Origin: Gemmatimonadota bacterium
GTDB lineage: Bacteria; Gemmatimonadota; Gemmatimonadetes; Gemmatimonadales; Gemmatimonadaceae
NCBI GenBank assembly: GCA_003223425.1
Contig: QHVA01000015.1
Coordinates: 1 to 37,376 of the forward strand
Direction of reading: 5' to 3'
DNA: 37,376 bases
The position numbers were made by a program, and so were the translations under genes. Numbering within the stretch: position 1 is the stretch's first letter; each line of letters starts with the position of its first letter. A model generated the notes under the pieces. That model made no database searches. It was given only the letters and a program-made list of their open reading frames with translations, and was not told the origin of the DNA. This document shows, in pieces, positions 18,391 to 37,376 of the stretch.

Positions 18391-18458
18391 GTTACTCGAC
18401 TCCGTGGGTTGGGACCGATACAACGAAACGTGGTGGCACTGCGCAGCGACATGTAGTA

Positions 18459-18476
18459 TGTTACCGATCGGTAACA
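18459..18476. promoter_or_regulatory. TetR operator O1
   Basis: A perfect 18-bp palindrome TGTTACCGATCGGTAACA in the region between the efflux operon and its divergent TetR gene. It is the copy nearer the adaptor gene, 69 bases from that start codon. The same sequence recurs 35 bp away. Confidence 0.85.
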
Positions 18477-18492
18477 CTCCATAAGCACCCCT

Positions 18493-18512
18493 ATGTTACC
18501 GATCGGTAACAT
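18493..18512. promoter_or_regulatory. TetR operator O2
   Basis: A perfect 20-bp palindrome ATGTTACCGATCGGTAACAT, nearer the tetR start (29 bases before its GTG). Its 18-bp core equals O1, and the centres are 35 bp apart, so two TetR dimers could sit on nearly, but not exactly, the same face of the helix. It probably serves both autorepression and repression of the pump. Confidence 0.85.
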
Positions 18513-18540
18513 TTCAGTCAAGTAGGGGGTAGAAACTATC

Positions 18541-34032: not shown

Positions 34033-36834
34033 CTAGGCCGAGTTGCGCTCCCGGCCGACAAGCTGCCTCAGTACGTAAGGCAAAATGCCTCCGTGACGGT
34101 AGTAGCTCAGCTCCTCCGGCGTGTCGATTCGCGACACGGTCCTGAACGTCTTCTCCGAGCCATCATCGCCGCGCGCGCGAACGGTAAGGACCGCCCGAGG
34201 CTTCATCTCCTCTGACATCCCTTCGATCTCGAATGTTTCGAACCCGCTAAGACCTGCTGTGACTCTGGTTTCCCCTGGCAGGAACTCCATCGGCAGCACA
34301 CCCATTCCCACCAGGTTCGATCGATGGATCCTCTCGAACGACTCGGCGATCACCGCCCGGACGCCGAGTAGCAGCGTACCCTTCGCTGCCCAGTCGCGAG
34401 ACGACCCAGTGCCGTATTCTTTGCCCGCGATGATCACGAGCGGAATTCCCCTCTTCTGGTATTCCATCGCGGCTTCGTAAATCGAAATCGGCTTTCCCCC
34501 CGGGCTTCGCGTAGTCCACCCACCTTCAGTTCCAGGCGCGAGCTCGTTGCGAAGGCGGATATTCGCGAAGGTTCCGCGCATCATCACCTCGTGATTTCCC
34601 CTACGCGAGCCATAGGAGTTGAAGTCGATCGTCTTCACACCCTGCTCGATCAGCCACTTGCCTGCCGGGCTCGAAGCCGGAATCGAACCCGCGGGTGAGA
34701 TATGGTCAGTCGTGATCGAATCTCCGAACATTCCAAGCACGCGCGCGCCTGTGATCGAGCGAATACCGGGCGGCGTGAGCGTCATTCCATCGAAGAACGG
34801 CGGATTCTTGACGTAGGTCGACGTCGGGTCCCAGGCGTAGAGATCGCCTTCGGGCACCGGAAGGCTGCGCCAGTTGTCGTCCCCGTGAAAGACGTTCGAG
34901 TACTGTGCCTTGAACATCTCCGCCTTCACCGAGCGGAGAATCTCGTCTTCCACTTCTTTCGGCGCTGGCCAGATGTCACGGAGAAAGACGGGGCCGCCGT
35001 TGCCAACGCCGATGGGCTCGGTATTGAAGTCGATGTCCATCCGCCCAGCGAGCGCGTACGCGACGACGAGCGGCGGTGAGGCGAGATAGTTGAATCGCGT
35101 TAGCGGATTGATTCGTCCCTCGAAGTTGCGATTGCCCGACAGCACCGCCGCGACCACGAGCTTGTGCGACTCGATCGCTTCGGCGATCGGCTGTGGCAGC
35201 GGACCGGAGTTGCCGATGCAAGTCGTGCAACCGAATCCGACTACGTTGAAGCGCAGCTGTTGCAGCGCGCTCATCACTCCGGCCTTCTTGAAGTAGTCCG
35301 TTACGACCTTGGAGCCGGGCGCGAGACTGGTCTTCACCCACGGCTTCGAGCCCAGACCCTTCGCTACTGCGTTGCGCGCCAACAACCCTGCCGCGAGCAT
35401 TACGCTCGGGTTCGATGTGTTGGTGCAACTCGTAATCGCGGCGATCACCACCGAGCCGTGGCGAATTGAGAACTTCTCTCCATTCATCTCTACGTGAACG
35501 CTCGAATTTTGTCCCGCCTGTTCATCCGGATCGGTGGCGACTACAGACGGGGAAAGCTGCGGTGATGCCGCGACCGCCATTGCCTGTTTCGCCGCCGCGA
35601 TTGCAGCGACCGTTCCCGTGCGCTCGAGATCGGCGGCGAGTGCGTCCTTGAACATCTTTTTCGACAGCTTGAGCGGCACTCTGTCCTGTGGACGCTTGGG
35701 ACCGGCGAGACTCGGCTCCACTGTGTGCAGGTCGAGCTCCAGCGTGTCGCTGAAGATCGGGTCCGGAGTGTCGTCCGTGCGGAAGATTCCCTGCGTCTTT
35801 GTGTACGCTTCGACGAGCTGCACCTGCGCCTCGTCGCGGCCGGTAAAGCGGAGATAGTTGATCGTCTCGGCGTCGATCGGAAAGAATCCCATCGTCGCGC
35901 CATACTCGGGCGCCATGTTGCCGATAGTCGCGCGATCTGCCAGCGAGAGGCTGGATAATCCCGCGCCATAAAACTCGACGAACTTTCCGACCACTTTTTT
36001 CTTGCGCAGCATCTCGGTGACAGTAAGCACGAGATCGGTCGCAGTAGCGCCAGGCTGCAGCCGGCCGTGCATCTTGAAGCCGACGACTTCCGGAATGAGC
36101 ATCGATACCGGCTGTCCGAGCATGGCTGCTTCGGCTTCGATTCCACCAACGCCCCAGCCGAGTACGCCGAGTCCGTTGATCATGGTGGTGTGCGAATCGG
36201 TGCCTACGAGGGAGTCGGGGTAAGCGTAGATCTGCTTGCCCACGACTTCGGTGAAAACCCCTTTCGCGAGATACTCGAGATTGATCTGGTGGACGATTCC
36301 CGTGTCGGGCGGCACGACACGGAAGTTGTGCAGGGCTTTTTGCCCCCAGCGGAGAAACGCGTACCGCTCCTGATTGCGGCGGAACTCGAAGTCGGCGTTG
36401 ATAAGGAACGCTGCCTCAGATCCGTACTCATCGACTTGGACCGAATGGTCGATGACGAGATCGACCGGTTGCAGCGGATTGATCAATCGGGCGTCGCCGC
36501 CGAGTCGCGCCAGCGCATCGCGCATGGCGGCGAGATCGACGACGGCGGGAACTCCGGTGAAATCCTGGAGCAGCACACGCGCGGTGCGGAATGCAATCTC
36601 CTTTTCGACTTTCCCCTTAAGGTCCCAGGTTGCGAGAGCGCGGACGTCGTCGGCTTTGACGAACTTGCCGTCTTCGTTCCTGAGCAGATTTTCGAGAAGG
36701 ATCTTGAGGCTGACGGGGAGTCGATCTGCGTTCCCGCCTCCGAGTTGGGAGAGGGAGTCCAGCCGAAAGATCGTGTACTGCCGACCCGCAACGTCCAGCG
36801 TTGATCGGCTACCGAAGGAATTCGGGTGTGTCAT
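34033..36834 (-). CDS. acnA: Aconitate hydratase A
   Basis: A 933-residue citrate-cycle enzyme (citrate to isocitrate) of the AcnA/IRP type. The [4Fe-4S] ligands are Cys470 in SCTNTSNPS and Cys536 and Cys539 in [15 protein letters not shown]. Other signatures are [29 protein letters not shown] (quoted part [16 protein letters not shown]), [21 protein letters not shown] and the swivelling-domain [16 protein letters not shown]. Residues 405-445 form an Ala/Gln-rich stretch between domains that is longer than in E. coli AcnA, probably a flexible loop. The ATG at 36834 fits the family. A strong hairpin lies in its leader and a long palindromic repeat further upstream. It is probably transcribed alone. 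Confidence 0.96.
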
Positions 36835-36888
36835 TTCTGTTTTTCCGAACTTGGCCGCGGCACGCGCTGGCCAGTGGGCACGGAGCCG

Positions 36889-36913
36889 CTGCGTCGCTCC
36901 TCGAGCGACGCAG
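36889..36913 (-). promoter_or_regulatory. Perfect 10-bp hairpin in the acnA leader
   Basis: CTGCGTCGCT-CCTCG-AGCGACGCAG, a perfect 10-bp GC-rich stem with a 5-base loop, centred about 65 bases before the acnA start. No T run follows in the acnA direction, so a terminator for the upstream gene is unlikely; it may be an mRNA stabiliser or a regulator site. The rest of 36835-36955 has no gene. Confidence 0.45.
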
Positions 36914-36955
36914 GCTGCCTCAATTTAACACAAATCCCAGAGCAGGGGTTTCTCA

Positions 36956-37149
36956 AAAACTGCAACTGAACGGGTGCGAGTTGTCAGTAGCACAGGTGCC
37001 AGCTTCGAGTTCACTACGCCCTGACCTACCTCCGGGGCGTGATGGTCACCGCTCGTGCCACGAATGGCGCCTAGTGAAGTCCGGGCGTCGTGAACTGAAT
37101 CACTGGCAACTACGCTACCGACAACTCGCACCCGTTCAGTTGCAGTTTT
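36956..37149. repeat. 194-bp long palindromic (MITE/REP-like) element
   Basis: The outer arms, 36956-36991 and 37114-37149, are 36-base inverted copies with a single mismatch. Inside them the two halves continue as a weaker inverted match (TGCCAG, GTTCAC, ACGCCC and GAC are paired in order), so most of the element folds into one long stem with a small centre near 37040-37060. The arms carry AACTGCAACTGAACGGG and its complement, the same core as in the hairpin at 727-774. It holds no credible gene. With 36835-36955 and 37150-37197 it makes up the 363-base intergenic region upstream of acnA. Confidence 0.85.
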
Positions 37150-37181
37150 CAGCCTGGAGTTTGTAGTAGCCAGCCCTCCCG

Positions 37182-37200
37182 CCCGTTCAGTTGCAGTTCA
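37182..37200. repeat. Third copy of the CCCGTTCAGTTGCAGTT motif
   Basis: CCCGTTCAGTTGCAGTT (37182-37198) equals 37131-37147 base for base, a direct repeat 51 bp away, and the inverted copy at 36958-36974. The final TCA (37198-37200) is the stop codon (TGA on the minus strand) of the gene that runs off the window. The 31 bases between it and the long palindrome show no further pairing. Confidence 0.75.
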
Positions 37201-37376
37201 ACCAGTTTTGGTGGTCGGCTCACTAGTGGGATCGACCGTCGTCTTCCCCGGAAGTCCGGTGCTGCCCATCTCGAGCCTCGTCGCGGCGATGGCCAGAGTC
37301 GGACAATGATGGACGAAATCGCCATCCGCCGGCGACCATTCTACGACCGGTGTCAGCGGATAAGCCTTGTGCTGCG
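37198..37376 (-). CDS. C-terminal end of an unrecognised protein, cut by the window edge
   Basis: Only the last 58 codons are present, with a TGA stop at 37198-37200. The product runs AYPLTPVVEWSPADGDFVHHC, followed by PTLAIAATRLEMG and a Pro/Thr/Ser-rich tail PTSEPTTKTG (quoted in parts). The frame is free of stops up to the edge and has the codon bias of its neighbours; the other two frames on this strand have stops. Too little is visible to name a family. The stop codon lies inside the repeat motif described at 37182-37200. Confidence 0.5.
   Translation of the reverse strand, partial: QHKAYPLTPVVEWSPADGDFVHHCPTLAIAATRLEMGSTGLPGKTTVDPTSEPTTKTG

Follow-up and report, generated by a model that had tools for sequence, protein, structure and literature searches.

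A dispersed 194-bp palindrome of Gemmatimonadales, probably the ORF-less form of an IVP-encoding mobile element

The palindrome and its surroundings

The window, i.e., the whole stretch of 37,376 nucleotides analysed here, belongs to contig QHVA01000015.1 of a Gemmatimonadales MAG (G000; 2.52 Mb, 247 contigs). Towards its end, the minus strand carries acnA (aconitase, 34033-36834), and 121 bp upstream of the acnA start, outside the gene, lies a palindromic element of 194 bp without an ORF (36956-37149, no strand assigned). Its left arm of 47 nt (36956-37002, plus strand) is 91% complementary to the right arm (37103-37149, minus strand), with which it pairs. The ends of the element read AACTGC.., and near either end sits a tip motif, CTGCAACTGAAC, at 36960-36971 on the plus and at 37134-37145 on the minus strand. 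This tip is common to the 194-bp copies, to short hairpins and to some of the gene-bearing elements discussed below.

Over the terminal arms (36956-36991 against 37114-37149) 35 of 36 positions match, over the outer 47 it is 43, and in an ungapped comparison of the half-elements the match drops to 57 of 97. The ends are, thus, better conserved than the interior. The first-pass annotation of this DNA had reported the same 35 of 36 and partly matching inner halves, and our recount agrees. Its remark that no transposase is encoded inside is borne out as well, since the interior holds no recognisable protein gene. Upon folding, the region clearly outperformed dinucleotide shuffles, with z scores of -9.0 on the plus strand (251 nt) and -14.4 on the minus strand (206 nt) and none of 200 shuffles as good. 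Rfam covariance models found no match in 36800-37376 up to E = 1.

The tip, written as AACTGCAACTGAACGGG, occurs three times at the element. The third occurrence (37182-37198) had been overlooked; it lies inside an extra end module of about 51 bp (37150-37198, minus strand), at whose end CTGCAACTGAAC is found at 37185-37196. Modules of about 51 bp also flank other copies of the family, on either side.

A short hairpin with the same tips (726-775, no strand assigned) adjoins msrA, a gene with a PMSR domain. The tip is matched there with 2 mismatches, 0.07 such matches being expected in the window. The hairpin is possibly a deletion derivative or a sister miniature of the palindrome, a kinship made plausible by the common tip and by short internal-deletion forms that relatives have at the OsmC-rsgA locus (see below). 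The initial proposal to unite both in a single family finds support in the tip, but the stem beyond it is unlike that of the palindrome, and full membership is unsupported.

Two further features of the window deserve mention. The acnA 5' leader (36770-36940, minus strand) is strongly conserved across the genus. It comprises a -10-like box, TGTGTTAGATT, after which follow a hairpin, AGCCTGCCG..CGGCAGTGGCT, whose tip covaries, with changes on both sides in 5 of 16 predicted pairs, and a conserved stretch, GGCCAGCGC..GCGGCC. It has no Rfam match and is a candidate for an unclassified leader RNA. At 18457-18516, between HlyD-type and divergent TetR-family genes, two near-identical 25-bp repeats, each with the palindrome TTACCGATCGGTAA, are found 35 bp apart; they are likely a TetR operator.

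Copy number, range and position

A search of G000 with the element yielded 84 matches, many of them being both strands of one place. About 40 copies of the palindrome are dispersed over the genome. The 36 full-length copies analysed, of which the window holds one, measure 193-203 bp, and their identity to that one is about 70-90%. G000 contains 62 occurrences of the 12-base tip and none of its reversed control. Among the sampled relatives, the family stays within one genus: 11 of its 19 genomes carry the element, and 0 of the 22 from elsewhere do. The public records that match are mostly MAGs of Gemmatimonadetes/Gemmatimonadales (e.g., palsa_1239, palsa_1244, AG39, UBA4718). The further copies for which the first-pass annotation had asked thus exist, in the genome as well as in its relatives. 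Viral carriage was considered and rejected: eight tip matches in IMG/VR came without the element, and phage records encoded no close homologue of the IVP protein introduced below.

Genes were called by a simple dicodon method that had been trained on these loci, and by these calls all 36 copies are intergenic. Of 35 copies with both neighbours known, 14 lie between convergent genes; among background spacers no shorter than 30 bp, the share is 18 of 130 (Fisher p = 0.0013). The median gap from a copy to the 3' end of a gene is near 23 bp, that to a gene start near 61 bp. Many copies bear extra end modules with tandem periods of about 17, 28-30 or 51 bp.

Convergent enrichment and closeness to stop codons would also be understandable if the palindrome were a selected bidirectional terminator or 3'-end stabiliser without any mobility, and a modest covariation (7 of 39 pairs changed on both sides) points the same way. 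Pairing and covariation are, however, too weak a signal to tell structural selection from subfamily structure: Watson-Crick pairing amounts to 92.4% for own and 90.2% for shuffled arms, and gapped 45-nt arms are as similar between copies (identity 0.829) as within a copy (0.826). Many pairs are mismatched, a T-run is not general, and the convergent placement could be a secondary effect. As the same locus may moreover be filled or empty among close relatives, we consider a merely structural role improbable.

Filled and empty sites

Orthologous loci in relatives were compared by means of targeted flanks. At acnA, G000 and G010 have the element, and in both it has the stop codon of a ferredoxin-like gene on one side and the promoter region of acnA on the other; it is absent in G011, G014, G016, G009, G002 and others. 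The SOD-speA locus is filled in G000, G011 and G016 and empty in G002, G009 and G004. At OsmC-rsgA the element is present in G000, G008, G010 and G011, and missing in G002, G016, G017 and G004, while G009 and G014 have shortened forms of roughly 30-60 bp. As the occupancy of syntenic loci differs between species, the element must either move or undergo gain and loss.

The same variation decides against a structured RNA of acnA, the alternative that the first-pass annotation had tied to occupancy of one locus in all relatives. The position in G000 and G010 had made it thinkable. The many relatives without the element, however, keep a conserved acnA leader, about 40 copies lie elsewhere, and there is no Rfam match. 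We regard this alternative as refuted.

With its length below 500 bp, its terminal inverted repeats, the lack of a transposase gene and its dispersed, polymorphic copies, the element resembles a MITE. The original view of a non-autonomous, MITE-like mobile family is accordingly backed by copy number, insertion polymorphism and the absence of an internal transposase. Target-site duplications, for which the first-pass annotation had advised looking, were not found: at 3-9 bp, direct repeats were not in excess over shuffled flanks. Nor was a clear target sequence seen for the insertions. The copies are old, and the duplications may have eroded; the direct repeats of MITEs fade with age, as a review puts it (PMC10969869).

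The element further resembles REP/BIME sequences, which are mobilised by RAYT, a Y1 transposase: it is extragenic, palindromic, located at 3' ends and equipped with end modules in mosaic arrangement (PMC3733652). REPs, however, are units of 20-40 bp (PMC3733652), whereas the present element has about 194 bp, and PF01797 matched only in G006, G015 and G016. This half of the first-pass reading fails because no RAYT is found in G000 or in the 98%-complete carrier G011; it is largely refuted and retains hardly any credibility.

Relatives that carry an IVP gene

Among the spaced tip pairs fetched from relatives, only one, in G014, held a gene neatly inside; no transposase was seen between the pairs. 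In the G014 pair, a lone gene is framed by a long inverted repeat, whose halves agree at 54 of 61 positions. The gene product is a 23S_rRNA_IVP protein (PF05635, E 1.6e-31), also recognised as a TIGR02436 four-helix-bundle protein. PF05635 is found in 17 of the 19 genus genomes. Where the flanks were long enough, 55 of 61 IVP genes lay in an inverted repeat (score of at least 40); for control genes the count was 2 of 86 (p about 7e-31). The complete elements measure about 500-650 bp and have inverted arms, mostly of 36-136 nt, and one IVP/S23p ORF in the loop.

The arms are homologous to those of the 194-bp family. Both of them match in L278 and L309 (G011), L307 and L292 (G017), L290 (G005), L298 (G001) and L321 (G010), one side in L289 (G016, where the contig ends), L301 and L304. 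These ORF-bearing relatives with the same arms had escaped the first-pass annotation. When aligned, the arms of the short and the IVP-bearing elements are co-linear, and homology extends past the paired arms into the 3' flank of the ORF; the 194-bp form, therefore, seems to have arisen from the ORF-bearing one by internal deletion. In the IVP tree, 8 of the 10 arm-sharing IVPs fall into one group of ten. The IVP ORFs are nearly always uninterrupted and, with dN/dS of 0.03-0.17 where measurable, are under purifying selection. Both forms prefer convergent sites (21 of 49 ORF-bearing, 14 of 35 ORF-less elements), and ORF-bearing elements with called neighbours lie, like the 36 ORF-less copies, between protein-coding genes and outside 23S rRNA. 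An ORF-bearing copy inserted against an empty orthologous site was not seen.

ORF-less palindromes are also known from other IVP arm families, the L305-type occurring in 13 places. The convergent SOD-speA spacer of G000, G010 and G001 (L199, L202, L207) contains ORF-less palindromes of three different arm families, among them the L311-type in G010 and the L300-type in G001; it is possibly an insertion hot spot.

Not every carrier has a matching gene. G002 (93% completeness) has ORF-less copies, and an IVP gene was not detected in it. The sole IVP gene of G000 is divergent and has other arms: L284 (G000:C29:6675-6980) lies in a 123-bp inverted repeat with 118 matches, which consists of short GACTGCGGACT-like units and is unlike the 194-bp arms. 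The matching IVP may have been lost from these genomes or may lie inside assembly gaps, the latter being possible because several contigs end in such repeats.

IVP itself has no known catalytic activity or domain, and its solved relatives, 2gsc and 2rld, are listed merely as uncharacterized proteins. One may, hence, think of an ordinary MITE, whose tips are recognised by a conventional transposase that was lost or escaped recognition, IVP being a selected passenger that, e.g., protects or processes the hairpin. Carriers without a matching IVP, such as G002 and G000, would be explained in this way, and so would the tips, which are common to elements with unrelated arms. In the spaced pairs examined, however, no transposase was enclosed, inverted repeats of many unrelated kinds accompany IVP genes, and target-site duplications are lacking. 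A passenger role is possible, yet in our opinion unlikely.

An RNA-mediated spread has to be considered too. Diversity-generating retroelements have an accessory four-helix protein of related fold; IVP would then play a comparable part and would cooperate with a reverse transcriptase; the elements, when transcribed, would be long hairpins. RVT_1, however, was detected in only 3 of 19 genomes (G009, G014, G015) and neither in G000, G001 and G010 nor in the 98%-complete G011, which renders this route very improbable. Being missing from most carriers, a reverse transcriptase of the retron, DGR or group II type is disfavoured as the mover.

Beyond the genus, inverted short tandem repeats also surround eight IVP genes on plasmids of cyanobacteria; their scores, 32-63, are weaker and have no matched control. 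On plasmids of Pseudanabaena and Anabaena (L340 and L343), IVP/four-helix-bundle genes are found inside CRISPR loci, with cas6 on one side and cas4 on the other, and are flanked by inverted tandem repeats.

Comparison with known systems

The closest likeness is to the intervening sequences (IVS) of 23S rRNA, of which forms lacking an ORF also exist. Like our ORF-bearing relatives, and unlike the window copy, they form a long inverted repeat whose loop can hold an S23p/IVP ORF. S23p/IVP is described as a protein without known function, and the IVS of Coxiella burnetii, a selfish element, carries its ORF in a hairpin with terminal inverted repeats (PMC4990558). Mobility has long been suspected, and the ORF was once proposed to be needed for it (Ralph and McClelland 1993, as cited in PMC4990558). 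IVS, however, reside within 23S rRNA, and RNase III cuts them out of the RNA (PMC4990558), whereas the present elements are intergenic throughout the genome and have multi-copy ORF-less derivatives.

YPAL/RU-2 and ERIC are likewise intergenic, 127-168 bp long, strongly palindromic, restricted to certain taxa and present in tens of copies or more, and for YPAL empty and filled sites are known (PMC2229807, PMC10969869). ERIC has TA ends and target-site duplications, YPAL duplications of 3-26 bp, in contrast to the present AACTGC.. ends without any; the portions of their descriptions considered here link neither to an ORF-bearing parent (PMC2229807, PMC10969869). QMITE2 comes close in size (about 190 bp), terminal inverted repeats and location at gene 3' ends, and its truncated copies resemble REPs; MITEs of its kind, however, have flanking direct repeats, of which we found none (PMC10969869). 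According to the same review, IS elements are presumed to be the main source of prokaryotic MITEs, whereas the relative with the same arms here encodes IVP and no known transposase. Literature that links IVP to dispersed palindromes was not found in a search thin on subscription papers; the novelty is, hence, provisional.

Interpretation and implications

The palindrome is probably a non-autonomous form, lacking the ORF, of a palindromic mobile element that encodes IVP, and IVP would act as its mover in trans. We observe that the arms are homologous, that each complete element has one intact IVP ORF, that the copies are numerous and polymorphic in their insertion, and that IVP is under purifying selection; from these we infer that the direction of change was deletion of the ORF and that IVP is the agent of movement, acting on the hairpin or its tips.

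The sequence of events would be as follows. A complete element of about 500-650 bp, two long inverted arms around one IVP/S23p gene, would lose the gene by internal deletion and leave a near-perfect hairpin of about 194 bp; further deletion would yield forms of about 50 bp. The hairpin would then have reached tens of intergenic positions, for the most part directly behind stop codons and frequently in convergent spacers, places in which its harm is smallest. IVP would bind the common tips or arms and drive the spread in trans, possibly with the help of host replication or repair enzymes at the hairpin.

A broader generalisation is more tentative, and we would sooner doubt than endorse it: IVP/S23p might be what mobilises a widespread class of palindromic elements, with the rRNA IVS as a special case and the ORF-less palindromes as its MITEs, working without a known transposase, recombinase or reverse transcriptase. 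The pairs of ORF-bearing and ORF-less elements with homologous arms, together with the high copy number and the empty sites, provide a concrete system in which to ask whether IVP moves DNA or RNA hairpins. The old suggestion of mobile rRNA intervening sequences becomes directly testable, and one kind of orphan bacterial MITE, that without a matching transposase, is offered a source.
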